A DNA stretch of 64,000 bases from Candidatus Goldiibacteriota bacterium HGW-Goldbacteria-1 (GTDB taxonomy: Bacteria > Oederibacteriota > PGYV01). Numbering within the stretch: position 1 is the stretch's first letter; every line of letters starts with the position of its first letter. The position numbers and the translations under genes were made by a program. A model generated the notes under the pieces. It ran no database searches. It saw only the letters and a program-made list of their open reading frames with translations, and was not told where the DNA came from. The stretch is taken from assembly GCA_002839855.1 (NCBI GenBank), contig PGYV01000001.1:124001-188000 (forward strand), written 5' to 3'. Shown here piece after piece: positions 2,347 to 16,625 of the stretch.

Positions 2347-3096
2347 TTAACGCCCTATGTATCTTAATATTCCATTAATAAAAGTCAGCGGATGCGGAGG
2401 GCAGCCCGGTATATAAAGGTCAATCTTATTTTTCTCCAAAAATCCTCTGTTTATTTCCGGGGAACCTTGAAAAATTCCGCCTGATATGGCACAGCTTCCG
2501 CATAATATGACAATTTTAGGGTGCGGCAATGCTTCATAACATATCTCAAGCGGCTCTGCCATGTTTTTTGTAACAGGGCCTGTTATCACAATTCCGTCAG
2601 CATGCCTTGGGGATGCTGTAAATTCCACGCCAAACCTGCCCATGTCAAAGTTAACATTATTCAGCGCGTTAAGTTCCAGTTCACACCCATTACAGCCCCC
2701 GGCAGATACCTGCCTTAGCTTCAGCGATTTTCCAAAATACTTCCTTATTTTTTCAGATGCCATCTGCATATTTACAGACTTTGCTTCTTCATTTATTATC
2801 AGGTTTTCTTTTTTGTCCGAAGCCAGATGATAATTGCCGGTAAAAGTTATCTTATTTTCAGGGCATACCTGCGCGCAAAGGCCGCAGAATACGCATTTCC
2901 CAATATCAATGCTGAACGGTTTTTTTGTAACAGCGCCCGCCGGGCAGATGTCAGCACATAAAACGCAGTTATGACTGCATTCAGCGCCGCTAATGTACGG
3001 AACTCCCCTGTATCTGTCAGGGAATTTGGCATCTCTATAATCATGCACAATAGGGTCTGCCTGCAGAATCCTAAGTTTAACAGCGTCAAATAACAA
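2347..3096 (-). CDS. Ehr/hydrogenase-4-like small subunit fused to a 2[4Fe-4S] ferredoxin domain
   Basis: This is a 249-residue electron-transfer subunit. Residues 35-85 are a two-cluster ferredoxin domain (Cys40/44/47/51 and Cys68/71/74/78), like HycF/HyfH. Residues 120-249 are a NuoB/HycG/HyfI domain with GGCNGCELELNAL (Cys135, Cys138), LCGSC (199-202) and PGCPP (Cys232), the ligands of the cluster nearest the large subunit. HyfH and HyfI are separate genes in Escherichia coli, so this is a fusion. The first ferredoxin motif has C-x3-C instead of the usual C-x2-C. The start codon is TTG, with AAGGAGGAATAAAA before it. It is the last gene of the operon, 19 nt after the large subunit. It should sit on the cytoplasmic face and pass electrons from ferredoxin or a similar donor. 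Confidence 0.88.
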   Translation of the reverse strand: MLFDAVKLRILQADPIVHDYRDAKFPDRYRGVPYISGAECSHNCVLCADICPAGAVTKKPFSIDIGKCVFCGLCAQVCPENKITFTGNYHLASDKKENLIINEEAKSVNMQMASEKIRKYFGKSLKLRQVSAGGCNGCELELNALNNVNFDMGRFGVEFTASPRHADGIVITGPVTKNMAEPLEICYEALPHPKIVILCGSCAISGGIFQGSPEINRGFLEKNKIDLYIPGCPPHPLTFINGILRYIGR

Positions 3097-3115
3097 TTTT
3101 ATTCCTCCTTACTTT

Positions 3116-4600
3116 CTATAAATCATGGCCCGAATATGACAGGTCAAAACTTTTATTGCATATTGGAAAATCATATATATCAGTATTCTGCATGACAAAA
3201 CTTAACGCCTGCCAGTTATTAAACGAAGGGTCCTTAATGTAATACTGCGTTAATTTTGAATCTTCCCCTGTAAAGGCACCGTGAAAAATTTCACCGCGAA
3301 ACCCTTCTGTAACTGATACAACTCCATACCCCGGCTGCAGCGCCGGATAATAGGTTTCTGTCGCGGTTCCGGCTTCAGGCAGGCTGTCAATATAATTATC
3401 AACGAACTTCATGGACTCTTCTATATCAAGAACCCTTAATCTTGTCCTTGAAAAGACATCTCCGCCTTCAATTGATATCATTGATACCGGCATATATCTA
3501 TAGCCGCAGTATGGATAATTCACCCTTGCGTCACACGCAAGCCCGGATGCGCGTGCCGCGTTTCCCGTTAAAGCCATTTCTTCCGCATCCTTTTTTAGCA
3601 CTATGCCTGTTTTTTCAAACCTTAATATCGCCGCTGACGATGTCAACAAACACCGGTTTATCTCTTTTATGTCATTCTTTACGGTTTCTAAATTATTTTT
3701 TATTACCTTTATGACGTCATCATTCATGTCATGACGCAGCCCGCCGTATGCAAACAGCCCGCGCCCAAACCTGGACCCGGACAGTTCGGCAAGGCTGTTA
3801 ATTACAAGAGTCCTTAGCCTGCCGTAGGAAGAAGATACTATTGCAAAACCTATGTCATTTGAAATACCAAGCAGCCCGCTTATGTTCATCGCAATCCGCT
3901 CAAGCTCCGATGCTATTACCCTGACAGCCTGCCGTCTTAAGCATGGATTAATTCCGGCAAGCGCTTCTATCGCAAGGCAGTGCGCGTGCGCGTGGCCCAT
4001 TACCGTATCACCCGCAATTGATTCCGCCAGAATTATCCTCTGCACGGGATTTGAATCAATAAGCATTTTATCAACACCGCGCTTCTGATACCCAAGGCTG
4101 ATTTCAAGATTATAAACAGTCTCCCCGTGGCACTGGAACCTGAAATGCCCGGGTTCAATAATACCGGCGTGTATGGGCCCAACCGCCACTTCATGCGCCG
4201 ACTCGCCTTCAAGCCTGTAGAACCGATACGCTTTGCCGTCTATTTTGGAATTCATGTCCCTTACCGGGCGCAGGCCCGGATGTGACTTTATTTTATACCC
4301 GTATTTTTCGGCAAGTTCGCATTCAAAATATTCCGCGTGCGGGAACTCTTCCGACATGCTTTCAAGTTCAGGCTCGCTGCCGTTTATTATTCCGCCCGCT
4401 ATGACAAATGACGAATTGTCGCGGTCAGAAAGAAGAATAATAAGTTTATTTCTCTCTGTCCGGTTAAGCGGAAACATCCCGGAAATTACAAGCCCGCCGC
4501 GCAGTTTTTCCATGACAGTTTCCTTAAATAACTGCTGCGGTATGAATTCAATTTCAGCTGTTCTAAAAGGCACGCCGTTATACACCCTAAGCAGGCTCAT
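3116..4600 (-). CDS. Ehr-type large subunit (NuoC-NuoD/HyfG-like) without Ni-Fe ligands
   Basis: The 494 residues combine an N-terminal NuoC/30-kDa-like domain (about 1-115) and a NuoD/HyfG-like domain. GPIHAGIIEPGHFRF at 141-155 is the conserved hydrogenase/complex I motif. Real hydrogenases have a CGIC-type motif next, but here residues 193-206 read ESIAGDTVMGHAHA. At the C-terminus DPCxxC is replaced by DFPICNKSFDLSYSGHDL. All four canonical Ni-Fe ligand cysteines are therefore missing. This is what is known for energy-converting hydrogenase-related (Ehr) complexes, and it argues against H2 chemistry. The start codon overlaps the stop of the preceding gene (ATGA, 4597-4600), so translation is coupled. 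The true redox partner is unknown. Confidence 0.85.
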   Translation of the reverse strand: MSLLRVYNGVPFRTAEIEFIPQQLFKETVMEKLRGGLVISGMFPLNRTERNKLIILLSDRDNSSFVIAGGIINGSEPELESMSEEFPHAEYFECELAEKYGYKIKSHPGLRPVRDMNSKIDGKAYRFYRLEGESAHEVAVGPIHAGIIEPGHFRFQCHGETVYNLEISLGYQKRGVDKMLIDSNPVQRIILAESIAGDTVMGHAHAHCLAIEALAGINPCLRRQAVRVIASELERIAMNISGLLGISNDIGFAIVSSSYGRLRTLVINSLAELSGSRFGRGLFAYGGLRHDMNDDVIKVIKNNLETVKNDIKEINRCLLTSSAAILRFEKTGIVLKKDAEEMALTGNAARASGLACDARVNYPYCGYRYMPVSMISIEGGDVFSRTRLRVLDIEESMKFVDNYIDSLPEAGTATETYYPALQPGYGVVSVTEGFRGEIFHGAFTGEDSKLTQYYIKDPSFNNWQALSFVMQNTDIYDFPICNKSFDLSYSGHDL

Positions 4601-6051
4601 GGCGACACCCCAAAATCAAACGCTATGCGCGTTATTATTTCCCTGAAACTCTGCGGCAGCAGCAGCGCCGCGCCGACAGACAGCGCCAGAAGCAGCAAAG
4701 ATACCAGATGAATTATATTGAATTCTTCTTTCTGCGGCGGCAGGATGTTTTTTTCATCAGGCTCATGGTGCAGCATATGAAGTATATGCAGGGACATCTT
4801 TATGAATATAACAAACATAAAAGCCAGTACGGATGCCAAAAGCCATGGTTTTCCCGTTTTAAATATCCCTTCAAATATCATAAGCTCGCTGAAAAATATG
4901 CCAAAAGGCGGAATCGCTGAAATTGCCAGAAACGCGGCAAAAAATATCCAGCCCGTCAGCGGCATTAAATTTATAACCGAATGCACGTTCTTAATCTCCC
5001 TTGATTTAAACTTTTGATGTATCAGCCCGGCGTTAAGAAACAGAATAACTTTTATGATGGAATTATATAAAGCATGGTACATGGCGCCGGTAAAAGCAAG
5101 TCCGCCCGTGCCTATTCCTATCACAATAATACCAAGATGTTCAACGCTGGAATAAGCAAGAAGCCTTTTATAATTTTTTACCTTAAACATCATTATCATA
5201 ACAACAACAAGCGATATTAAACCGCCTGCAATAAGGCTGGTTTTTACAAATCCGGCAATTGAGGAACTGTTTGTAATCTGAACAAACCGCAGAAGGCCCA
5301 ATAACGCTGTTATCCTGAGCGAACCTGACATAAGGGCGGCAATTGGGCTGGGAGAATTGCTTGTGGCGTCAACATCCGCCTGATGCATGGGCGCAATGCC
5401 TATCTTTGTGCTTAAACCCACAAATATAAATACAAATGCCGCCTTTAGCCATACCGGGTTTAAAAGCGCGGCGTTTTTTACAAATTCATCAAAATAAAGC
5501 TGCCGGCCTTCAAGTATTGTGTTATGCGCGGAAATTGCAAGAAAAAGAATTCCAATAAAAGTAAAGGCAATTCCCACAGAGACTAAAAACAGGTATTTCC
5601 ACATGGCTTCAAGCGAATCCCTGTCCCGGTAAAAGAAAATAAGCGGCGCAACGCTTAACGTTGTGGCTTCTGCCGCCACCCAGTATATTATAAAACTTTT
5701 ACTCATTACCGCAGCCCCGTTTGCAAGCAGGAAAAGGTTCAGAAAAAAGTAAAAATACTTTATTCCGCTTGCGCTGCTTTTTAAATGGGTGTTTTTCAGA
5801 AACGAACCCGAAACAAGCATAGTCCAGAAATACACATTTGAGATTATAAGAAGAAAATACCTGCTTAAAGCGTCATATTCACCGGCCTTAATCCCCAGAA
5901 CATCAGATTCAAAAAAGACAGCAACAGAAAAAGCAAGATGAACGGCGGCCACACCTAACGACAGCACAAAACGCGGTTTTTCCCGCCTTATTAAATAGCA
6001 TGCCGCCATTGCAAGAAAAGGCAGAATGTATAAAACAAACACAGCTGCCAT
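4597..6051 (-). CDS. Ehr antiporter-like subunit (HyfF/NuoN-like)
   Basis: A 484-residue polytopic membrane protein of the Mrp antiporter/NuoL-M-N family. The residues thought to carry protons are present: Glu in YWVAAEATTLSVAP, Lys in GLSTKIGIAPMH, and Lys in HALYNSIIKVILFLNAGL. LLAYSSVEHLGI is the typical family motif. The length and the C-terminal Glu/Lys-rich cytoplasmic end fit HyfF. It overlaps the HyfE-like gene by one base (TGATG at 6049-6053) and the large-subunit gene by four. In the complex it should be one of two ion-translocating modules. Whether H+ or Na+ moves cannot be read from the sequence. Confidence 0.87.
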   Translation of the reverse strand: MAAVFVLYILPFLAMAACYLIRREKPRFVLSLGVAAVHLAFSVAVFFESDVLGIKAGEYDALSRYFLLIISNVYFWTMLVSGSFLKNTHLKSSASGIKYFYFFLNLFLLANGAAVMSKSFIIYWVAAEATTLSVAPLIFFYRDRDSLEAMWKYLFLVSVGIAFTFIGILFLAISAHNTILEGRQLYFDEFVKNAALLNPVWLKAAFVFIFVGLSTKIGIAPMHQADVDATSNSPSPIAALMSGSLRITALLGLLRFVQITNSSSIAGFVKTSLIAGGLISLVVVMIMMFKVKNYKRLLAYSSVEHLGIIVIGIGTGGLAFTGAMYHALYNSIIKVILFLNAGLIHQKFKSREIKNVHSVINLMPLTGWIFFAAFLAISAIPPFGIFFSELMIFEGIFKTGKPWLLASVLAFMFVIFIKMSLHILHMLHHEPDEKNILPPQKEEFNIIHLVSLLLLALSVGAALLLPQSFREIITRIAFDFGVSP

Positions 6052-6683
6052 CAGTCACCCAGCCGTGTAAGTTCGGCAGTTTCTGTTTCCGGTGCCGCCG
6101 AGCTTATTTTATTTAATGCCACGCCCATAATAAACACCACAATGAAAATATCCAGAAGCGAAGCTATTTCCACCAGAAACGGCAGTTCAAAATGCACTGC
6201 AGCCCCAAAAAGGAAAATACCGTTTTCCAGAATTAAAAAACCAATGGCATGTACAATAAGTTTTTTTCTGAACATTATTATAAGAAGCCCGCAGATAACA
6301 GAAGAAAAACCGGAGGCAAAAACAATAGTGTCAACAGGCATAGACTCTGAAAGTATCCTGGAAGTTACAAAAACCACCGCCATGGCTGCCAGCATTATCA
6401 GAAGAAAGGTAAAATTTTGTACTGTTGTTTCAATGGTCCGCTTCAAGTCAGACTCCACAATTAACTTATTTAAATACATCGGTATAAAAAACGCCTTCAC
6501 CACAAGCAGAATGGCCGGCAGCAGCAGATAAGACGGCTTAAATTCGCCGAATAACGGCAGTATATTAATGGCGGTAAGCAGCATTCCCTGCAGCGCCAGC
6601 ATCTGCACGTATGATTCCAGCCGCCTTGTAACGGCCAGATATAACAGTGTAAGGCAAAAAACAATACTTAAAACGCTCTCCAT
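6051..6683 (-). CDS. Ehr HyfE/NuoK-like membrane subunit
   Basis: A 210-residue, very hydrophobic protein with six or more predicted membrane segments. Its latter half (ILENGIFLFGAAVHFELPF and the following LLDIFIVVFIMGV) matches the NuoK/MnhC-like core of HyfE, including the Glu in LILENG. Position and size agree with HyfE in the order B-C-E-F-G-H/I. A GAGGTAATGAC stretch precedes the ATG. It is expected to link the NuoH-like and antiporter-like subunits in the membrane arm. The C-terminus is a short acidic tail. Confidence 0.82.
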   Translation of the reverse strand: MESVLSIVFCLTLLYLAVTRRLESYVQMLALQGMLLTAINILPLFGEFKPSYLLLPAILLVVKAFFIPMYLNKLIVESDLKRTIETTVQNFTFLLIMLAAMAVVFVTSRILSESMPVDTIVFASGFSSVICGLLIIMFRKKLIVHAIGFLILENGIFLFGAAVHFELPFLVEIASLLDIFIVVFIMGVALNKISSAAPETETAELTRLGD

Positions 6684-6692
6684 GTCATTACC

Positions 6693-7613
6693 TCATTTGT
6701 TAAGTACAAATATAAGAAGATTTAATATCCCGATTGCAGTTGCAAAAAGCAGGTATTGCGGCACTTCCCGTATCTTTATTCTTCCGGTTATTGTTTCCAC
6801 AACCGCAAGCACAAAGGCAAATATGACAGCGGTCAAAACGACAATTAAAACCGCCCCCATGCCTGATATTTTTAAAAGCGGCAGAAGAAAGGCGGCTTCA
6901 AAAGCCATATAAATAAAAAGTTTTATCTGGGCGGAATACTGGTACATGAAAAGGTCCGCGCCGGAATTATCAAGTATCATAACTTCGTGTATCATTGTCA
7001 GTTCCAGATGCGTGTTAGGGTCATCCACCGGCATACGGGAACATTCAGCAACAGCAAGCACAAAAAATGATATTGAAGATACAATGACAAAAACAAAATA
7101 AACCGCGCCGGACGCGTTGACAGAACTGAAAATTTTATATAAGGACGTATTGCCGCTTATAAAAGCAAGCGCGCCTGCCGTAAAGAAAAATATAGGTTCC
7201 GCAAATATTGAAAAAAACGATTCCCTGGAAGCTCCCATCCCTTCAAAAGAACTTCCTATATCCATAGCCGCGATTATCTGAAAAAACCGCGACAACCCCA
7301 GTACATAAGCAAAAAATATTATATCACCTTCAAAACTTATAAGCGGCTTTGCGGAAGCCAGCGGTACCATCGCGGATGCTATTACCGTACATGCCAGATT
7401 AACCGGCGGCGAAATACGGCTGATAAAGGATGAATGCGACGAGTTAATTGTCTCTTTTTTAATAACCCTGAAGAGTTCATAATAAGGCTGAAGCACAGGC
7501 GCGCCCTGCCTTCCGGTAAAATAAGCTTTTAACTTATTGACAATTCCGCTAAGAAGCGGGGCTAAAACCAGCACCGAAGCAAAAGCCAGACAGGACTTTA
7601 GAAAATCAGTCAT
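6693..7613 (-). CDS. Ehr NuoH/HyfC-like membrane subunit
   Basis: A membrane subunit joining the hydrophilic and membrane arms. Family motifs are plain: YFTGRQGAPVLQPYYEL near residue 35, SFEGMGASRESFF, and ECSRMPVDDPNTHLELTMIH followed by a conserved Glu. I take the ATG at 7613 as the start because it overlaps the stop of the previous gene (ATGA, 7610-7613). A TTG at 7619 would add two residues. It has about eight hydrophobic segments and the usual length for HyfC (about 306 residues). In complex I this subunit forms the quinone chamber. In Ehr and Hyf complexes the equivalent cavity is believed to be part of the proton path. Confidence 0.88.
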   Translation of the reverse strand: MTDFLKSCLAFASVLVLAPLLSGIVNKLKAYFTGRQGAPVLQPYYELFRVIKKETINSSHSSFISRISPPVNLACTVIASAMVPLASAKPLISFEGDIIFFAYVLGLSRFFQIIAAMDIGSSFEGMGASRESFFSIFAEPIFFFTAGALAFISGNTSLYKIFSSVNASGAVYFVFVIVSSISFFVLAVAECSRMPVDDPNTHLELTMIHEVMILDNSGADLFMYQYSAQIKLFIYMAFEAAFLLPLLKISGMGAVLIVVLTAVIFAFVLAVVETITGRIKIREVPQYLLFATAIGILNLLIFVLNK

Positions 7614-9574
7614 TTCCAAAACAACGCCCCCGCCCCGTATATGGATGCCATTATAACTATCATAAGCACATATACCCTGATATCCCTGCTGTCAAAAATT
7701 TTTATTTCCGAAAAGAACTTCTCAACAGAGGCAAAAAACGAAAGTATGATTTTTTTATCCACTAAATCAGATGAATGACTTTCAAAATACACCGCTTTTT
7801 TTCCGGAGTATTTTACTTTTTTAAAGTACTGTAAAGGAACCGAGGAAATTGAATTTACCCCGTCTGCAAAAGATGAAGCGGTATACTGCATTCTTGGGCT
7901 TAAACCTTTATAACCGCACGCCCATGCGCCGGATTTTCTTCTGCCATATCGTCTTTCCAGAAAAACTTTAAGCGCAGAAAATAATATTACCGCCGCAAAT
8001 ATTATAAACGCCGCAAGGCTTATATATCCCGCTTCTATGCCGGGCAGGCCAAAGGAAGGCGCAAAATTAACATTAAAACTGTAAGCCGTTTTGTAAACTG
8101 TTTTTATGAAAGCCGAAGGAAAAACGCCTATTATCAGGCATGCCAAAGCCAGAATTCCAAGCGAACCATATTCCGGCAGGCTTACGCTGAATTTTTCAAC
8201 GGGCTTTCTTTCTTCACCCAGAAATATTATGGAATTGATTTTTGTAAAACACGCGATGGCAAGCCCCCCCACAAAGGCAAGCGCTACAGAACAGATAAGC
8301 ATATAAATGGGATAATACCCGCCAAATTCAGCTGAAGCTTTAAAAAAAGATATAAATATGATAAATTCCGATACAAAACCGTTAAACGGCGGTATCCCGC
8401 TTATGGCCACGGAACCTGCCAGAAAAAGCGCGGCAAAAAACGGCGCCTTATGCACCAGGCCGCCCATTAATTCTATATTTTTTGTCCCAAGATTTCTGTC
8501 CAGCACCCCGCTTCCAAGAAACAGCAGGCTTTTAAAAAGCGCGTGGTTAAGCGTATGCAGAAGAGCTCCGCCAAAACCAAGCAGGACAAGCGCCGGAGCA
8601 TTTTTTGCGGAACCCAGAAAACCTATCGCCAGGCCGATACCTATTATCCCTATATTTTCCACCGAATGATAAGCCAGCAGAGTTTTTATATCGTGCTGCG
8701 CCAGGGCATACCATACCCCGAATACCGCGCTTATAACGGCAACTGCCATCAGAACCCAGCCCATCCATTCCGGTACCGGCTGCAGAATCTGAAAAGTCCT
8801 GAAAATTCCATAAATACCGGTTTTTATTATAACGCCGGAAAGAAACGCGCTTATTGTGGTGGGTGCAATAGGGTGAGCCCTTGGAAGCCAGAAATGTACA
8901 GGCATGAAACCGGCTTTCATTCCAAAAGCCAACAGAGCTGTAATAAATATAATTGGATACCAGGATGAACCGGAAGGTACATTAAACCCGCTGATAAGCC
9001 AGGTTCCGCTTATATTATGCAGAATAAAAAATAGAAAAAACAGCAGGTACATTATAAAGTGGCTCATCGCAAGATAATAGAAACTGCCATCCTGTACTTC
9101 TTTTTGTTCCTTCTTAAAAAGCATGCCAAGATACGCGGACATGCTCATAATCTCCCAGCATATTAAAAACATTACCGCGTGATCTGCCGTTACAAGCGCC
9201 TGGGTAAATACAACCAGCAATATGTAAAACAGCATCAGGTTTTTAACGTTCTTGCCGGCGCTTATGTAATACCCCAAATATGAATAGCTGTATATGGTAA
9301 TGGCAATAGCCGCGCCCTGAACCACACACAGGAAAAAAAGCGCCGCAGAATCAAGCCTGTATGTTAAGTATTCATTATTAAAAAGGGTTCCTGCCGCAGA
9401 AAAAGAAATAACGCCTGAAAGCATCATTACAGAAACCACAAAACCGGTTAACAGTCCCATAAGCAGCAGTAAATGGGCGGCGACGGATGACGCTTTTTTA
9501 TCGCCTATAAAAAGCGCGAATACGGATAAAAGCTGTATGGCAAATGATAAAAAAAGAGTATTTTCCCCGGTCAC
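7610..9574 (-). CDS. Ehr antiporter-like subunit (HyfB/NuoL-like)
   Basis: A 654-residue member of the NuoL/Mrp antiporter family, close in size to HyfB. The functional charged residues are in place: Glu in LICWEIMSMSAYL, Lys in AFGMKAGFMPVHFWLP, Lys in GVIIKTGIYG and Lys in NHALFKSLLF. LLAYHSVENIGIIGIG is the usual helix 8-9 motif. The gene starts with GTG inside the stop of the EIIA-like gene (GTGA, 9571-9574), so the regulator and this pump subunit are translationally coupled. The long C-terminal extension after residue 560 (Arg-rich, then one last membrane helix) is typical of HyfB. Confidence 0.88.
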   Translation of the reverse strand: MTGENTLFLSFAIQLLSVFALFIGDKKASSVAAHLLLLMGLLTGFVVSVMMLSGVISFSAAGTLFNNEYLTYRLDSAALFFLCVVQGAAIAITIYSYSYLGYYISAGKNVKNLMLFYILLVVFTQALVTADHAVMFLICWEIMSMSAYLGMLFKKEQKEVQDGSFYYLAMSHFIMYLLFFLFFILHNISGTWLISGFNVPSGSSWYPIIFITALLAFGMKAGFMPVHFWLPRAHPIAPTTISAFLSGVIIKTGIYGIFRTFQILQPVPEWMGWVLMAVAVISAVFGVWYALAQHDIKTLLAYHSVENIGIIGIGLAIGFLGSAKNAPALVLLGFGGALLHTLNHALFKSLLFLGSGVLDRNLGTKNIELMGGLVHKAPFFAALFLAGSVAISGIPPFNGFVSEFIIFISFFKASAEFGGYYPIYMLICSVALAFVGGLAIACFTKINSIIFLGEERKPVEKFSVSLPEYGSLGILALACLIIGVFPSAFIKTVYKTAYSFNVNFAPSFGLPGIEAGYISLAAFIIFAAVILFSALKVFLERRYGRRKSGAWACGYKGLSPRMQYTASSFADGVNSISSVPLQYFKKVKYSGKKAVYFESHSSDLVDKKIILSFFASVEKFFSEIKIFDSRDIRVYVLMIVIMASIYGAGALFWK

Positions 9575-10239
9575 TTCGCGCGCCTTCCTTCGATTTCATT
9601 AATAACGTTAACTATATCCATAAAAACAGCCCTTTGTTTAAGCGCCACCCTGAAACTTTCATGTGATAACAGAAGGTTTATGTGTGCCAGCATTCCAAGA
9701 TGCTGCTTTATGGTCTGCGACATCATAAGTATTATGGTATGAACGGGCTGATTATCAACCGCTTTAAGTTTAAGATATTTCTCGGGGAAGAAGAACATAA
9801 TTAGCGGCCTGTCTTTTGCAATAATCAGGGGAACCCTGGGATGCGGCAGACTGATGCCGTGCCCGATTGCCGTGCTCATAAGCCCTTCCCTTGCCTTCAA
9901 CAGCTGAACAACAACTTTTTTATCGGTGCCGGCCGGAAATTCGGCAATGTTAACCATTTCATCCAGATAACTCTTTTCGCTTAAGTTCACATCACGGTAA
10001 AATGATTTCTCCGAAAGAAGCGGCACCATTGAACCTATGGAATATTCAGTCATCTTCATGCTGCCGGTCAGGTTTACAGGGACCGAATTTTCTATGGCCC
10101 ATGCTATTATCTGCTGTTTATTGAAACACACTTTATCCCTAATGACGTCAAAAGGTATGTTTTTATTCTTAACAAGCGCAATAATTTCTTTTTCGGGCTT
10201 TAAAAGAAATACAGCAAGATCCTTTACAGACAGCTCCAT
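9571..10239 (-). CDS. Regulatory EIIA (PtsN-like) protein with N-terminal excisionase-type HTH
   Basis: The start at 10239 is chosen because a strong AGGGGGG site precedes it and it avoids overlap with the SulP gene. An upstream in-frame ATG exists at 10305. Residues 1-52 (MELSVKDLAVFLLKPEKEII onward) look like a small helix-turn-helix of the excisionase/MerR type. Residues ~85-220 are a PTS EIIA type 2 domain with the phosphorylated His in GHGISLPHPR. No EIIB or EIIC domain is nearby, so transport of sugar is unlikely. EIIA-Ntr is known in E. coli to control K+ transport and stress responses. Here the gene sits between an anion transporter and the Ehr subunits and overlaps the next gene by 4 nt. 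I infer a phosphorylation-dependent regulator of this operon or of its transporters. Confidence 0.8.
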   Translation of the reverse strand: MELSVKDLAVFLLKPEKEIIALVKNKNIPFDVIRDKVCFNKQQIIAWAIENSVPVNLTGSMKMTEYSIGSMVPLLSEKSFYRDVNLSEKSYLDEMVNIAEFPAGTDKKVVVQLLKAREGLMSTAIGHGISLPHPRVPLIIAKDRPLIMFFFPEKYLKLKAVDNQPVHTIILMMSQTIKQHLGMLAHINLLLSHESFRVALKQRAVFMDIVNVINEIEGRRAK

Positions 10240-10258
10240 AAACCCCCCTGCCTTTTTT

Positions 10259-11935
10259 TCATTTTGTTTCCATAATTTTTCTTGCCCTGTTATATGCCAT
10301 TTCAATATTTCCCAGTATATTGCCTTTTCCTATTTTTTCCGATAAACCCGCTTTTTCAAGGGCATGTGAAGGCTGCTGATGTACGCCGCATAATAGAAGC
10401 TGCGTGCCATTGGATTTCAGCCTGTTAAAAACTTCATCAAGCGCTTTGATGCCGGCTCCGTCTATAGAAATAACTTTTTCCATGTACAGAATGAATACTT
10501 TGGAATTTTTCAGTTCCTGCGTGACTGAATCCTTAAATTTATCAATGACCCCGAAGAAGAATACACCGTCTATTTCAAACACTTCAACCCCGTCAGGTAT
10601 CTTCTTAATTGAATTAATATACTCTTTGTCTTCCTTATTTTCTTCTTCATCCAGTGACCTGTCCACAAAACCCGCGTGCGTCACTTCGGTCACCCTGTTT
10701 ACAAGCAGAAACATCGCAAGAAGAATTCCCACCTCTATCGCGGCGGTAAGGTCCACGATAACCGTAAGAAAGAACGTGATAAGCATAACAGCAACATCAC
10801 TTTTGGGGTACTTGAATACGCCTGCAAAAGTTCTCCACTCGCTCATCTGATAGGCGACAAAAACAAGGATTGCCGCAAGGACAGCAATTGGAATCATACC
10901 CGCCCATTTTCCAAAAAACAGCATTATAAGCAAAATTGTGACAGCGTGTATTATTCCCGCCACGGGAGTCTGCCCGCCGTTTTTTATATTCGTGGCGGTC
11001 CTTGCTATAGCGCCTGTGGCCGGAATCCCGCCAAACATGACAGAACCAATATTTGCAAAACCCTGCGCCATAATTTCCGCGTTGCTTCTGTGCCTGCGCC
11101 CAGTCATACCGTCAGCAACAACCGCCGATAAAAGCGATTCTACAGCGGCAAGAACCGCAATGGTGACAGCCGGGGAAAACATCTTTCTGGCAAGTTCAAA
11201 AGTTATATTTGGAAAATGCGGCGCGGGCAGCGTGTTTGGAACCTGCCCGAATCTTGATTCTATTGTTTCAACAGGAATATTAAATATTTTTACTGCAGCA
11301 GTACATAGTATTATAGCCACAAGCGAAGCCGGTATTTTTCTTATGAATTTAGGCCATATTATAAGAAGCGCCAGTGAAAACAGCGCGATACCCGCCGCCC
11401 ATGGGTTCATATCCCCTATATGCTGCGCATACGCCTGAATTTTTCCCACAAAACCGGCCGGAAGAGAATCCATTTCAAGCCCAAAGAAATCTTTTATCTG
11501 CCCGGTAAAAATAATAAGCGCTATACCTGATGTAAATCCGATTGTAACCGGATACGGGATAAACTTGATATATGCCCCAACTCTTAAAAATGCCATGGTA
11601 AGCAGAATAAAACCCGCGATTAAGGTGGCGGTGGCAAGGCCGTCATATCCATACTTGCCCACTATCCCATAAACAATTACGATAAACGCGCCGGTCGGCC
11701 CGCCTATCTGATAACGGCTGCCCCCAAGTACAGAGATTATAAGCCCCGCGACTATCGCGGTATAAAGCCCCTGTTCCGGTTTCACACCGGAGGCAATAGC
11801 AAACGCTATTGCAAGTGGGATTGCAACCACCCCCACAATAATTCCGGCATTTAAATCCTTTAGAAAAGTACTTACAGTATAGCCTTCCTTAAACACGCTG
11901 ACAATTTTTGGTAAAAGCGAATACCTGTGCTTCAT
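10259..11935 (-). CDS. SulP family anion transporter with C-terminal STAS domain
   Basis: A 558-residue SLC26/SulP transporter. Residues 20-420 are the membrane domain, with the motif AIPLAIAFAIASGVKPEQGL and GGSRYQIGGPTGAF, which marks the anion site. Residues ~445-558 are a STAS domain (ISIDGAGIKALDEVF, LLLCGV). SulP proteins move sulfate, bicarbonate, dicarboxylates or other anions; the substrate cannot be assigned by reading. There are no sulfate assimilation genes in the window. As the first gene of the operon feeding the HTH-EIIA and Ehr genes, it may supply or remove an anion (bicarbonate or formate are possible) linked to the ion gradient made by the complex. A GGAG site lies 8 nt before the ATG. 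Confidence 0.9.
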   Translation of the reverse strand: MKHRYSLLPKIVSVFKEGYTVSTFLKDLNAGIIVGVVAIPLAIAFAIASGVKPEQGLYTAIVAGLIISVLGGSRYQIGGPTGAFIVIVYGIVGKYGYDGLATATLIAGFILLTMAFLRVGAYIKFIPYPVTIGFTSGIALIIFTGQIKDFFGLEMDSLPAGFVGKIQAYAQHIGDMNPWAAGIALFSLALLIIWPKFIRKIPASLVAIILCTAAVKIFNIPVETIESRFGQVPNTLPAPHFPNITFELARKMFSPAVTIAVLAAVESLLSAVVADGMTGRRHRSNAEIMAQGFANIGSVMFGGIPATGAIARTATNIKNGGQTPVAGIIHAVTILLIMLFFGKWAGMIPIAVLAAILVFVAYQMSEWRTFAGVFKYPKSDVAVMLITFFLTVIVDLTAAIEVGILLAMFLLVNRVTEVTHAGFVDRSLDEEENKEDKEYINSIKKIPDGVEVFEIDGVFFFGVIDKFKDSVTQELKNSKVFILYMEKVISIDGAGIKALDEVFNRLKSNGTQLLLCGVHQQPSHALEKAGLSEKIGKGNILGNIEMAYNRARKIMETK

Positions 11936-12009
11936 TGACTTAGCTCCAAAAGGGCAAAAAAATTTTACCTTTTTGATTTGTCGTCCGGTCTGTTAATGGT
12001 GGCCTGGCG

Positions 12010-12025
12010 GCATTTCACGAAATGC
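12010..12025. promoter_or_regulatory. 16-bp palindrome in the leader of the SulP-EIIA-Ehr operon
   Basis: GCATTTC and GAAATGC arms of 7 bp are separated by 2 bp. A second short inverted repeat (GCTAT...ATAGC, 12024-12040) follows. Both lie inside the ~130-nt leader of the operon, about 45-60 nt downstream of the -10 box. The palindrome could be an operator for the HTH-EIIA protein or part of a leader RNA fold. Neither is shown. Confidence 0.4.
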
Positions 12026-12074
12026 TATATTTGAAATAGCTTTTTTAATGTATTGCCCTTTAAATATAAATGAG

Positions 12075-12104
12075 ATTATACACCTTAGAATGTTTTTATG
12101 TCAA
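12075..12104 (-). promoter_or_regulatory. Strong sigma70-like promoter for the SulP-EIIA-Ehr operon
   Basis: TTGACA (12099-12104) and TATAAT (12075-12080) are both perfect consensus boxes with an 18-bp spacer, on the minus strand. Transcription would start near 12068, leaving about 130 nt of leader before the SulP ATG at 11935. No other promoter of this quality was seen within the operon. Confidence 0.65.
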
Positions 12105-12161
12105 TACCTGTGAAATACCGGCAGGGTTCAGGGTAATATTTTCCGAATTCCGAATGATAAT

Positions 12162-15100
12162 TTACTTAATTATTATCAGTTTATCCGTTTTTGAAGCGGC
12201 ACCGGAATCATCCCGTATGACAAAATAATACGTGCCGCAGGCGAAAGTTTTAAGGCGGGATGCGGGTATTTCCGCGGTTTTAACTCCGGCGTAAACTTCA
12301 CCGGAAAGTTTAATCTCTTTTACAAGCCTGAATGAAACGGAATAGACCTTAAGATTAACTTCTTTTGCTTTTTTGGTAAGCGTATATCTTATCCTTAACA
12401 TACTGTCATTTGGATTGTACGGGTGCGGGTAAACCAGCACATCTTTAATCTGCTGCTTGTCAGCATCCGGCGGCAACAAAGTGGATGTCGGGGTGGGTGT
12501 ATGCGTATATGTCTGCGTTGCTGTATATGTATAAGTATTTGTATACGTGGAAGTCGGTGGAACAGGTGTATTTGTAAGCGTATGCGTTCTTGTAGCGGTA
12601 TTTGTATATGTTTTTGTGTAAGTATTTGTGGCTGTTTGGGTGCTTGTGTTTGTCGCAGTATGTGTTGCTGTATATGTGTTTGTATTTGTGCTGTTCGGAA
12701 TATTAGTCGCGGTCTGTGTGGCTGTGTTTGCCGGCACTGTTGCGGTGTACGTACTTGTGTTTGTCGGCACTGTTACGGTGTACGTGCTTGTGTTTGTCGG
12801 CACTATCGCGGTGTACGTGTTTGTGTTTGTCGGCACTATCGCGGTGTACGTGTTTGTGTTTGTCGGCACTATTGCGGTGTACGTGCTTGTGTTTGTCGGC
12901 ACTATTGCGGTGTACGTGCTTGTGTTTGTCGGCACTATTGCAGTGTATGTACTTGTGTTTGTCGCCGAAGGTGTCGCAGTATGCGTACTTGTGTTTGCAG
13001 GCACCGTCGACGTGTGTGTTGCCGTGTGCGTGCTTGTGTTTGTCGCGGTATCAGTCGCGGTGTAAGTTGATGTGTGTGTTGAAGTATGCGTGGCGGTGTT
13101 TGTATTTGTATGGGTTGAAGTAAAGGTATTTGTAGGCTGAATAGTGTTTGTATTAGTACGCGTGTACGTGGCAGTTACAACAGCAGTGTTTGTCGGGGTT
13201 GAGCCGCACCCAGTGTCAATTTTTCCGATTCCGGCGCCGGCAATAACGGACGCCTTAACAGATGAAGCCGGTTCAAGCGCGGCGGAGTAATCGTAAGTTG
13301 GATTAAAAGTACAGGTGGATGACGTGGGCCTGTTGTTGGTGCAGTTTTGATAAATGTTTGAATTGTCCGCGCCGTTAAAACCGCTTCTTAAATCCCAATA
13401 CCCGTCAAGCGTACTGTTTGCGGTCAATATCGGGTCATCGGAATTTTCAAAGTAATTATTTTCCACCCTTAAACACGCTTCCATCCTTGAATTTACCCCT
13501 GACGAAAGCACGTCATAAAAATAGTTATTATAAACATGGCCCGTGCCAAAGCGGTAGCTTGGCATCCTTTCCTTAATATTGTTGTAACGGTTATGATGGA
13601 AAGTAATCTTTCTATCGTAATTATCGCTGTCCGAACTTCCCACAAGGTGGCATTTGTGGTGGTCGTGAAAATAGTTCCACGATAAAGTTATATAATTTGA
13701 ATTATTTTTAACATCCAGAAGCCCGTCATACAAATCCTGGTTAGTCTGCACGTTCGGGTCCTGCTGATAAAATTCGCAGTGGTCAACCCATATATTGGTA
13801 CAGGTGTTCTGAATGCTTACACAGTCTCCGCCGTTTACTATTATCTGCGGCCTGCCTTCATCGCCGTCCGGGTCATATACAGCGGGGTCAGTGGTATTGG
13901 TTATGGACACCAGCGTAAACTTAATATTTCTTATTATAATGTTGCTCTCATTGCTTATCATTAGTCCTATACCGTTAAAAAACGCGCCGCTGCCGCACCC
14001 TATAATGGTTTTGTTGGAACCCACCCTGACCGATTTACCTTTGTCATCGCCGCTGTTAATTTCACCGGTAACCCTTATAACAGCCGGCGTGTCGCCCGCG
14101 GCGTAAGTGATAAGGTCAGCCAGATTTGTGACGTCATAAATAACTCCGCCTTCCCCTCCGGTTGTTCCGCCATTCTGCGTTGCAAAGCCCACCATACCGT
14201 CTGTTAATACTGACTGTGTCTGCACGGGCGTATACGTCGCAGTGGAAGTTGAATTTACGGTGTAAGTGTAAGTAGGTGTTGCCGACGGGGCAGAACAGCT
14301 GCCCGCGGAGATATTTGCTGATACAGCGGATATCCTGTCAATATTCGGGGCGCCTTCAGCTGTAAGCGAAGTAAGCGTTATCAGATTATTCCCCGCGGCA
14401 AGGGCGGCGTTAAAAGTATTTTCCTGCCACACAGTCCACGCGGATGTGGTGTTAAAGTCAAAAGATGATGATACAACAGCGCCGTTAATTTTTATTTCCA
14501 TATTCCTGTTATTGGCGCTGCCGTTGGCATACCTGAAAGTAAGGTTAACATTTGCCGCGGATGACATATTAAGCGCAAAGGTATAAGCCGTTCCCGCGGC
14601 GTTATTAAGGTTTATATACCCTGTTCCGGTATAACCCGCGTTTGTGCTTTCTATTATGCCGTCGTAAGAACAGCCGTCTTCCGCCTGAAATACAAAATAA
14701 TTCTGCGGAGTCGGCGTCAAAGTGGGCGTAAGGGTGGAAGTGTAAGTATGCGAAAAAGTAAATGTCGGCTGCGGCGTATTACCGGGATAAAAAATTTGAA
14801 CTGACGGCTGCGCTGACGGGCCGTCGCCAAGATAAAACGAAACGTGCGGCGGCTGGTTATAAGCCACATTCTGCCACGCCACAGAAACCCTATATTGAAA
14901 ATCGTGCATCAAAGTATAAAACCTATAACTTGTTTCTATAACTGTCGTATATATCATCAGCTGTGTGTCAGAAGAATTTCTGTATATTGCCTCTTCGCGC
15001 CAGTCGCCTAAGATGTCCGCGGTAAGGCCCGGGTTTGCTTTTGTGCCGTTATTTTCTTTTGCGTCATTCACGGCATAAAAAGTGTAAAGCCTTGTTGTGC

Positions 15101-16625
15101 CGTTTCCTGTCCACTTATCAAGTTTGGTGCCGTCCAGCAGTTCATCCTGCAGGTCGCCGTCCCAGTATATTCTGTGGTTAATGGAAGGTTTTGAAGTTGA
15201 AATGCGCGTGCCGTTTACATTATAGACGCCGTCTGTATTGGAAGCCCACATTTCCCAGCCCCGGTAATTGCCGTCAATATCTGCGGCCAAGCCTCTTCCA
15301 ACATCAACAGCCGATGGGTATCCCCACAGCTGGTCTCCTGTTTTAGGGTCTCTGTATTCCGCGCCGTATTGTCCAAAAGCACTTACATCTTCGTGCGGCT
15401 GAAAATATTCAAGCCCTGCCCTGTCAGGATCCATATCGCCAAGATGGCACGCGTCGCCGTGGCCAAGCCCTGTTGAATAAAGCCCTGTTCCATTGTCATC
15501 TATAGAGCACGCGCCGTACACAATTTCATCCCGCCCGTCGCCGTCAACATCGCCTACGCTTAAATTATGATTGCCCTGCCCGTAATATGCGGAATTTCCG
15601 GCTGAATTGGAATCAAAGACCCACCGCTGCGTAAGAGCTGTACCGTTAAAATCATACGCCACAAGCACCGCGCGGGTATAATAGCCGCGGCACATTACAA
15701 GGCTTGGGTTAACGCCGTCAAGATACGCCACACCTGCCAGAAACCTGTCCACACGGTTGCCGTAATCGTCTCCCCACGACGATACTGTTCCCCTTGGAGG
15801 ATTGTAATTTATTGTGGTAATTTCACGCCCTGTCTGCCCGTTAAAAACAGTTAAATACTCCGGCCCTAATAACACATATCCCGAACTGTTTCTGTAATCA
15901 TCACCGTCTTGATCAGAAGCCGCAGGGCCCGTACTTAAAAAACCGCCGCTGCTGTCTTTTGTCCCCGGCGCAGTCTTGCACGCAATTTCCGCCTTTCCGT
16001 CACTGTCAAGGTCGTACACCATAAACTGCGTGTAATGAGCGCCGGCGCGGATATTTTTTCCCAAATCAATACGCCACATTAAAGTCCCGTTAAGTTTGTA
16101 CGCGTCAAGAAAGACGCTTCCGGTATAACCGGACTGTGAGTTATCTTTGGAATTATCAGGGTCCCATTTAAGAATTATTTCGTATTCGCCGTCGCCGTCA
16201 AGGTCGCCTGTAGAACAGTCATTTGCCGTATAATTGCACGTTGTAAAATCAGGCATTGTCTGCGATGCGGGCTTAGTAAGGTTAATTGTTTTATACTGCT
16301 GTGCCCAAACGGGCGCGGACTCTGAATCGCCCTGCTCTGTTCCGCCGATTACAGCACGGACAGTGTAAGTTGAATTTGCGGTTGTATTATCGGTTAAGTT
16401 TGTTGAACCTGTTAACGGGGATGAATTGACTTTCACGCCGCCCCTGTAAACATTAAAGGAGATATCCGCGGGATCTGTGGCAAACATTCGCCATCCCACG
16501 TAAACCGTGTTTGTGCCTGTCCTTACAGCCACCACTCCGCGGTTTAATCTTTCCATATACCTGGCGGAAAATACCGGCTGTAAAAAGACAGTTATCAAAA
16601 TAAGGGTTAAAACTGTTCTTTTCAT
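12162..16625 (-). CDS. Secreted bifunctional pectinase: PL11 rhamnogalacturonan lyase + CBM + PL1 pectate lyase
   Basis: The 1487 residues start with a signal peptide (MKRTVLTLILITVFLQPVFS). Residues ~20-625 match rhamnogalacturonan endolyases of family PL11 (YesW type), with DLDGDGEYEIILKWDPDNSK and NIRAGAHYTQFMVYDLDSDG. Residues ~665-800 are a CBM6/35-like module beginning FQAEDGCSYDG. Residues ~835-1130 are a PL1 pectate lyase with WVDHCEF, DGLLDVKNNSNYITLSWNYF and ERMPSYRFGTGHVYNNYF, which holds the catalytic Arg. A Thr/Asn-rich linker (~1160-1385) leads to the shared C-terminal domain (1387-1487) ending DKLIIIK. The enzyme should cut both the branched rhamnogalacturonan I backbone and homogalacturonan outside the cell. 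Confidence 0.9.
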   Translation of the reverse strand: MKRTVLTLILITVFLQPVFSARYMERLNRGVVAVRTGTNTVYVGWRMFATDPADISFNVYRGGVKVNSSPLTGSTNLTDNTTANSTYTVRAVIGGTEQGDSESAPVWAQQYKTINLTKPASQTMPDFTTCNYTANDCSTGDLDGDGEYEIILKWDPDNSKDNSQSGYTGSVFLDAYKLNGTLMWRIDLGKNIRAGAHYTQFMVYDLDSDGKAEIACKTAPGTKDSSGGFLSTGPAASDQDGDDYRNSSGYVLLGPEYLTVFNGQTGREITTINYNPPRGTVSSWGDDYGNRVDRFLAGVAYLDGVNPSLVMCRGYYTRAVLVAYDFNGTALTQRWVFDSNSAGNSAYYGQGNHNLSVGDVDGDGRDEIVYGACSIDDNGTGLYSTGLGHGDACHLGDMDPDRAGLEYFQPHEDVSAFGQYGAEYRDPKTGDQLWGYPSAVDVGRGLAADIDGNYRGWEMWASNTDGVYNVNGTRISTSKPSINHRIYWDGDLQDELLDGTKLDKWTGNGTTRLYTFYAVNDAKENNGTKANPGLTADILGDWREEAIYRNSSDTQLMIYTTVIETSYRFYTLMHDFQYRVSVAWQNVAYNQPPHVSFYLGDGPSAQPSVQIFYPGNTPQPTFTFSHTYTSTLTPTLTPTPQNYFVFQAEDGCSYDGIIESTNAGYTGTGYINLNNAAGTAYTFALNMSSAANVNLTFRYANGSANNRNMEIKINGAVVSSSFDFNTTSAWTVWQENTFNAALAAGNNLITLTSLTAEGAPNIDRISAVSANISAGSCSAPSATPTYTYTVNSTSTATYTPVQTQSVLTDGMVGFATQNGGTTGGEGGVIYDVTNLADLITYAAGDTPAVIRVTGEINSGDDKGKSVRVGSNKTIIGCGSGAFFNGIGLMISNESNIIIRNIKFTLVSITNTTDPAVYDPDGDEGRPQIIVNGGDCVSIQNTCTNIWVDHCEFYQQDPNVQTNQDLYDGLLDVKNNSNYITLSWNYFHDHHKCHLVGSSDSDNYDRKITFHHNRYNNIKERMPSYRFGTGHVYNNYFYDVLSSGVNSRMEACLRVENNYFENSDDPILTANSTLDGYWDLRSGFNGADNSNIYQNCTNNRPTSSTCTFNPTYDYSAALEPASSVKASVIAGAGIGKIDTGCGSTPTNTAVVTATYTRTNTNTIQPTNTFTSTHTNTNTATHTSTHTSTYTATDTATNTSTHTATHTSTVPANTSTHTATPSATNTSTYTAIVPTNTSTYTAIVPTNTSTYTAIVPTNTNTYTAIVPTNTNTYTAIVPTNTSTYTVTVPTNTSTYTATVPANTATQTATNIPNSTNTNTYTATHTATNTSTQTATNTYTKTYTNTATRTHTLTNTPVPPTSTYTNTYTYTATQTYTHTPTPTSTLLPPDADKQQIKDVLVYPHPYNPNDSMLRIRYTLTKKAKEVNLKVYSVSFRLVKEIKLSGEVYAGVKTAEIPASRLKTFACGTYYFVIRDDSGAASKTDKLIIIK
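12476..13205 (-). repeat. Thr/Asn-rich linker region of the PL11-PL1 gene with a 33-bp tandem repeat
   Basis: This stretch encodes the linker of TNT, TYT and THT units. From about 12723 to 12985 it contains about eight near-identical 33-bp units encoding AIVPTNTSTYT. The coding strand is rich in ACN codons, so the plus strand reads as G/T-rich, mostly alternating pyrimidine-purine DNA. Long antisense open frames here are composition artefacts. Confidence 0.8.

Follow-up and report, generated by a model that had tools for sequence, protein, structure and literature searches.

The eight-gene operon at positions 2347-11935 (minus strand) of the window, by which we mean the whole stretch of 64,000 nucleotides analysed here, is supported by its sequence features as an Ehr complex, not a hydrogenase. 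Its first two genes, encoding a SulP transporter and an HTH-EIIA regulator, had gone unremarked in an earlier note on this DNA. The most likely function seems to be that of a ferredoxin-fed, redox-driven ion pump with an acceptor other than protons (probability roughly 0.55). The gene order is SulP, HTH-EIIA, HyfB, HyfC, HyfE, HyfF, EhrL and a ferredoxin-HyfI fusion, and neighbouring genes overlap or are separated by no more than 20 nt:

12075..12104 (-), candidate promoter TTGACA-18-TATAAT, about 140 nt upstream of the SulP start codon
10259..11935 (-), SulP/SLC26-type anion transporter with a STAS domain (PF00916, E=3e-88; PF01740)
9571..10305 (-), HTH and PTS EIIA_2 regulator (PF00359); likely start at codon 23, about 10239, giving 222 aa
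7610..9574 (-), HyfB-like antiporter-type subunit (PF00361; best NCBIfam match hydrogenase 4 subunit B)
6693..7619 (-), HyfC/NuoH-like membrane anchor subunit (PF00146)
6051..6683 (-), HyfE-like membrane subunit (weak NCBIfam match to hydrogenase 4 membrane subunit; position conserved in homologous operons)
4597..6051 (-), HyfF-like antiporter-type subunit (PF00361; best match hydrogenase 4 subunit F)
3116..4600 (-), EhrL, large subunit with 30 kDa and 49 kDa domains and without Ni-Fe ligands
2347..3096 (-), EhrS, small subunit; N-terminal 2x[4Fe-4S] ferredoxin domain fused to a NuoB/HyfI-like domain

The EhrL ORF codes for 494 aa on the minus strand; translation of 3116-4600 on the plus strand is full of stops. 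The motifs quoted in the earlier note, GPIHAGIIEPGHFRF (residues 141-155), ESIAGDTVMGHAHA (193-206) and DFPICNKSFDLSYSGHDL (477-494), are all present where it had placed them. We aligned EhrL with 99 homologues drawn from many phyla, with NuoD of the genome itself and with HycE, HyfG and NuoCD of E. coli. The columns of the HycE ligands C241, C244, C531 and C534 hold A196, T199, S488 and G491, and the claim that all four Ni-Fe ligands are lost is thus borne out against HycE, HyfG and NuoCD. In the homologues the C241 column holds Ala (75), Cys (11), Ser (10), Thr (2) or Val (1) and that of C244 Thr (79), Ser (16), Ala (3) or Val (1), while those of C531 and C534 are Ser and Gly in 98 sequences each, with one gap in either column. 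None of the 99 carries both Cys of either pair. Cysteine ligands displaced but present, which would have spoken against the earlier reading, were also sought in this alignment, and it contains no shifted Cys pair. At position 490, one before the last ligand column, Cys is common in relatives and the window protein has Ser; C481, where HycE has Ile, is near-invariant. Because the ligand loss is conserved across phyla, chance or assembly error can be ruled out. EhrL stops three residues past the last ligand column, and HycE and HyfG run more than 30 residues further; its C-terminus falls where hydrogenases carry the tail removed by a protease, that is, at the end of a mature hydrogenase. By phmmer it matches HycE of the FHL complex at E=1e-40, and its best family matches are PF00346 and NCBIfam NuoD/FpoD.

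The rest of the genome, which is 100% complete, agrees with this. Searches with PF00374, HypD and HycI, each of which found its targets in control genomes, gave no [NiFe] large subunit by PF00374, no HypD and no HycI-type maturation protease in the whole genome. The check for hypA-F and a protease proposed in the earlier note was thereby carried out for the protease and, among the hyp genes, for HypD. A second large subunit with both CxxC motifs, which would have weakened its case, was rejected as well: the sole other EhrL homologue in the genome is a NuoD-like gene on a different contig (L132, G000:C15:56000-75999), in what reads as a complex I set of nuoA-D and nuoH-N, without nuoEFG nearby and preceded by a polyprenyl-synthase-like ORF. 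The ligand loss, together with the lack of PF00374, HypD and maturation protease matches in the genome, argues that the EhrL complex is not a hydrogenase. Four [FeFe] hydrogenase matches were found in the genome; therefore the H2 metabolism of the organism, if any, need not involve Ehr.

The large subunit is homologous to those of group 4 [NiFe] hydrogenases and to NuoD and lacks the Ni-Fe-coordinating residues, as Ehr complexes are defined (PMC6349859), and it is accompanied by an FeS small subunit and NuoH-like and antiporter-like membrane subunits. In a phylogenetic tree, from which a fragment of 10% length that had disturbed the first tree was left out, 37 sampled EhrL sequences form one clade (support 100/100) separate from hydrogenases and complex I, which further upholds the identification as Ehr-type; the window protein falls into a six-member subclade with sequences from Bacteroidota, Spirochaetes and Ignavibacteriales. 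At least 575 relatives were confirmed. As modelled by AlphaFold (mean pLDDT 89; below 50 in the loop 139-152), EhrL has its best PDB fold match in HycE of FHL (7z0s_E, TM 0.87).

Residues were taken as clade-specific when conserved in at least 93% of the Ehr clade and absent at that column from a reference set of HyfG, HycE, MbhL, a true group 4 hydrogenase of the phylum, NuoCD and the genome's own NuoD. In EhrL they include D198, inside the former CGIC motif, N482, K483 and S488, in the former DPCxxC region, and D457. H204 and H211 of HyfC are likewise clade-specific (88 homologues), and the stretch that holds them is taken to be the TM5-6 loop, which faces the active-site chamber in relatives. 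Judged by this conservation, the former metal pocket is not decayed but re-lined with an invariant polar set. H144 and D249 align with a conserved His and Asp of NuoD and are invariant in the 99 homologues. Of the quinone-site His and Tyr of complex I NuoD, EhrL thus keeps the former (H144), and the column of the Tyr that follows in NuoD is occupied by G197 and by Gly in 99/99 homologues.

The small subunit retains ligands for three [4Fe-4S] clusters. Those of the proximal cluster (C135, C138, C202 and C232) are all kept and of hydrogenase type, within a full-length GGCNGCE motif with CxxC in place of the tandem Cys that bind cluster N2 in NuoB of complex I, and both ferredoxin-type clusters keep theirs. 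Among homologues, about 94-97% have the proximal ligands and about 93% most of those for the second ferredoxin cluster; roughly a quarter have lost ligands of the first. Small subunits of Gastranaerophilales (L099, L078, L083, L111, L114) are without several Cys of this first cluster. The intact ligands of the window protein favour a redox over a conformational reaction, the two drives that the earlier note had considered.

In the membrane arm, the channel residues E141, K220, K251, H340, K348 and E403 of HyfB and E128, K216, K295 and K334 of HyfF are conserved, and HyfC keeps the acidic chain E141, E192, E206 and E212. The proposal of an ion pump is consistent with these Glu, Lys and His residues; pumping itself we infer from them. 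Several ehr operons (L058, L069, L073, L074, L095, L142 and others) carry two successive HyfB-like subunits, possibly an extra pump unit.

The HTH-EIIA regulator is the one non-ehr gene that recurs in more than four of 80 ehr neighbourhoods. Its phospho-histidines H155 and H202 are invariant in the family and M23 is near-invariant, so that it belongs by sequence to the EIIA_2 proteins with active His; its best fold match is PtsN/EIIA-Ntr. Pfam detects PTS_EIIA_2 in 37/37 and HTH_17 in 35/37 family members. The window's own HTH has diverged to below the Pfam threshold, which makes DNA binding by this copy uncertain. Its model also gave weak fold matches to the cytoplasmic domains of the anion exchangers AE2, AE3 and NDCBE (E about 1e-3 to 5e-3), which is curious beside the adjacent SulP gene.

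An EIIA-type gene lies directly before hyfB, on the same strand, in 37 of the 66 loci whose sequence extends far enough upstream of hyfB to show it, and loci headed in this way occur in Planctomycetes, Verrucomicrobia, Bacteroidota, Spirochaetes, Deltaproteobacteria, Omnitrophota and others. Among 44 genomes of the window's phylum we found nine full-length HTH-EIIA genes, eight of which abut ehr genes; the ninth is at a contig end and points outwards. In 20/20 genomes tested from other groups the ehr-linked copy matched over its full length and nearly always scored highest, in a comparison that somewhat favours ehr-linked copies because the search model was built from them. In the genome of L093 a shorter EIIA-only gene slightly outscores the ehr-linked copy, and a few genomes have weaker full-length paralogues elsewhere. 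Ten genomes whose ehr locus is without the gene have no full-length HTH-EIIA at E<=1e-15. One contig (G044:C31) carries two complete tandem ehr operons (L032, L033), and both start with an HTH-EIIA gene of their own. A cultured bacterium with ehr and the HTH-EIIA gene is Geomonas limicola (L125). On this genomic distribution, HTH-EIIA is a dedicated partner of ehr operons across many unrelated bacteria. Since an EIIA gene heads the operon in many loci and the ehr-linked copies are dedicated, the operon seems to be wired to PTS signalling. The genome codes for an EI domain, preceded by an HPr-like ORF. From this context and the conserved histidines we infer that the PTS state may control the complex through HTH-EIIA.

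The association with SulP is narrower. The window gene, whose best PDB sequence match is 6ki1, is the only SulP gene of the genome. SulP adjoins ehr on the same strand in L052, L054 and L093 and divergently in L053, and SulP of a different type lies divergently beside L058; most other ehr loci, including those of two of the six closest relatives, are without it. Because the window, L052, L053 and L054 are closely related, independent SulP-ehr events are few (two to three). Downstream of the ehr operon of L053, at 12305-14528, another EIIA-like ORF and an ArsB/NhaD-like transporter ORF can be read. Our literature search, which was incomplete and lay outside the original Ehr papers, found no publication tying EIIA or SulP to Ehr or Hyf, and as far as searched both the link to HTH-EIIA and the variant with SulP are new.

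ORF clustering of 80 ehr neighbourhoods gave no non-ehr family besides EIIA in more than four. An enzyme partner such as formate dehydrogenase, NuoEF or carbonic anhydrase was therefore not recurrent; the pairing with formate dehydrogenase proposed for other Ehr complexes (PMC6349859) is not seen beside these loci, as the clustering gave no such family. The candidate promoter matches the consensus at 12/12 positions, by consensus match alone, and is unique in 12.5 kb. No RNA element was found upstream of the operon at Rfam gathering scores, and several imperfect inverted repeats at 11930-12165 include no convincing operator. Positions 12162-42361 of the window hold a series of large genes, most of them on the minus strand. 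Their products include one protein of GH44+GH16 and one of GH8 type, a GH77 4-alpha-glucanotransferase and a member of the alpha-amylase family, and in the ORF at 12162-16625 the domains are separated by Thr/Asn-rich repeats.

In the mechanism that we favour, reduced ferredoxin or another donor would feed the two ferredoxin-domain clusters, and these would pass the electrons on to the proximal cluster. An acceptor other than H+ would then be reduced in the remodelled chamber that lies between EhrL, EhrS and HyfC, while H+ or Na+ would be pumped by the HyfC/HyfF/HyfB arm. HTH-EIIA, presumably phosphorylated via the genome's EI and HPr, may make the operon's expression or activity follow the energy (PEP/pyruvate) state. 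SulP, co-transcribed with these genes, would move an anion, for which HCO3- or a dicarboxylate is plausible, and use the same gradient or serve the same pH/anion balance. No donor or acceptor gene travelling with the operon recurs in more than four of the 80 neighbourhoods, and strict conservation of the electron path is contradicted by the loss of first-cluster ligands in about a quarter of homologues.

A specific form of this explanation, possible though rather doubtful, is a ferredoxin:quinone oxidoreductase whose chamber reduces quinone as in complex I, Fpo and NDH-1. The invariance of the NuoD-conserved H144 and D249, the NuoD/FpoD and PF00346 matches at the top of the EhrL family list and the complex I set beside a polyprenyl-synthase-like ORF, which suggests quinones, are all in its favour, but the Gly at the NuoD Tyr column, the hydrogenase-type CxxC of the proximal cluster, the new charged or polar residues D198, N482 and K483 in the pocket and the existence of a complex I in the same genome speak against it. 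It is unlikely that the complex serves mainly the homeostasis of inorganic carbon or of pH. The pump would power HCO3- uptake by SulP or, in the manner of NDH-1MS and DAB, a vectorial hydration of CO2, as the position of the genome's only SulP at the head of the operon and its recurrence at the loci named above would allow; the hyf cluster of Acidithiobacillus caldus adjoins a beta-carbonic anhydrase gene (PMC3826726), and a function in pH homeostasis is suggested for Ehr of Methylacidiphilum (PMC6688271). Against this, most loci, two of the six closest relatives included, are without SulP, no beta-carbonic anhydrase was found in the genome, and SulP substrates are diverse and not predictable from sequence here.

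Other bacteria have ion transporters that are regulated by EIIA-type proteins. The redox module could accordingly be a non-catalytic scaffold or gate in a regulated cation/proton antiporter, to which the loss of one ferredoxin-domain cluster in some homologues would also fit; we hold this to be improbable in view of the invariant pocket residues and the retention of proximal and second-cluster ligands in the great majority of homologues (about 94-97% and mostly about 93%). Polysulfide reduction at an under-ligated proximal cluster, as in MBS of Pyrococcus furiosus, is very improbable. MBS is related and also has an incomplete set of Ni-Fe ligands, but it keeps two of the four Cys and its shortened proximal motif leaves an open iron (PMC7684303), whereas all four Cys are gone from EhrL and the GGCNGCE motif of the window is of full length with four ligands; sulfane reduction is unlikely for this reason.

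The ferredoxin-fed pump thus remains our preferred reading. A wider picture, offered tentatively, is that of a phylum-spanning branch of Ehr complexes under a dedicated PTS-linked HTH-EIIA regulator, with a reaction new among relatives of complex I in a pocket re-lined with invariant Asp, Asn, Lys and Ser, and with a sub-branch that would energise anion uptake by SulP. Hundreds of species carry Ehr complexes, and since these are prone to be taken for hydrogenases or NADH dehydrogenases in annotation, predictions of H2 metabolism are inflated. Their reaction bears on how complex I-type pumps changed substrates. D198, N482, K483 and S488 of EhrL, with H204 and H211 of HyfC, tell Ehr from hydrogenases and are direct targets for mutation, and HTH-EIIA gives genetics a point of entry: it hints at the state of PTS and energy in which the complex is used, and offers a way to expression conditions and a phenotype.

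Ehr complexes without Ni-Fe motifs have been described as widespread and of unknown function (PMC10432482, PMC6349859, PMC10284858, PMC4378227), for example in Riflemargulisbacteria, Nitrospira, Sulfobacillus and Methylacidiphilum (PMC6349859, PMC10284858, PMC4378227, PMC6688271). As this loss defines them, the earlier note had correctly recognized a known kind. Our literature search found no experiments on any Ehr of the window's clade. The window likewise combines subunits of group 4 hydrogenases and complex I without the Ni-Fe motifs, and its operon has both HTH-EIIA and SulP, neither mentioned in the portions of the Ehr publications seen. With E. coli Hyf/Hyc it shares homologues of HyfB, C, E, F, G and I in the same order, the hydrogenase-type proximal cluster and an EhrL model resembling HycE; it differs in having no Ni-Fe ligands, no cleaved tail and no maturation genes found, in missing HyfD, HyfA and HyfJ from the operon and in the fusion of HyfH with HyfI. 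Complex I (NuoB/CD/H/L/M/N) has also lost all four Ni-Fe Cys, and the window keeps His144 and Asp249 where NuoD has its conserved His and Asp, but it has Gly for Tyr, no tandem Cys, no NuoEFG and the new invariant D198, N482 and K483. The 2x[4Fe-4S] ferredoxin-type entry and the antiporter-like arm are common to MBS and MBH of P. furiosus; MBS has a three-Cys proximal cluster and two of the four Ni-Fe Cys, and MBH all four (PMC7684303), unlike the window with its full-length CNGC motif. The window regulator, finally, has the EIIA_2 fold and both phospho-histidines in common with PtsN/EIIA-Ntr, and is set apart by its N-terminal HTH fusion and the position of its gene directly before hyfB.
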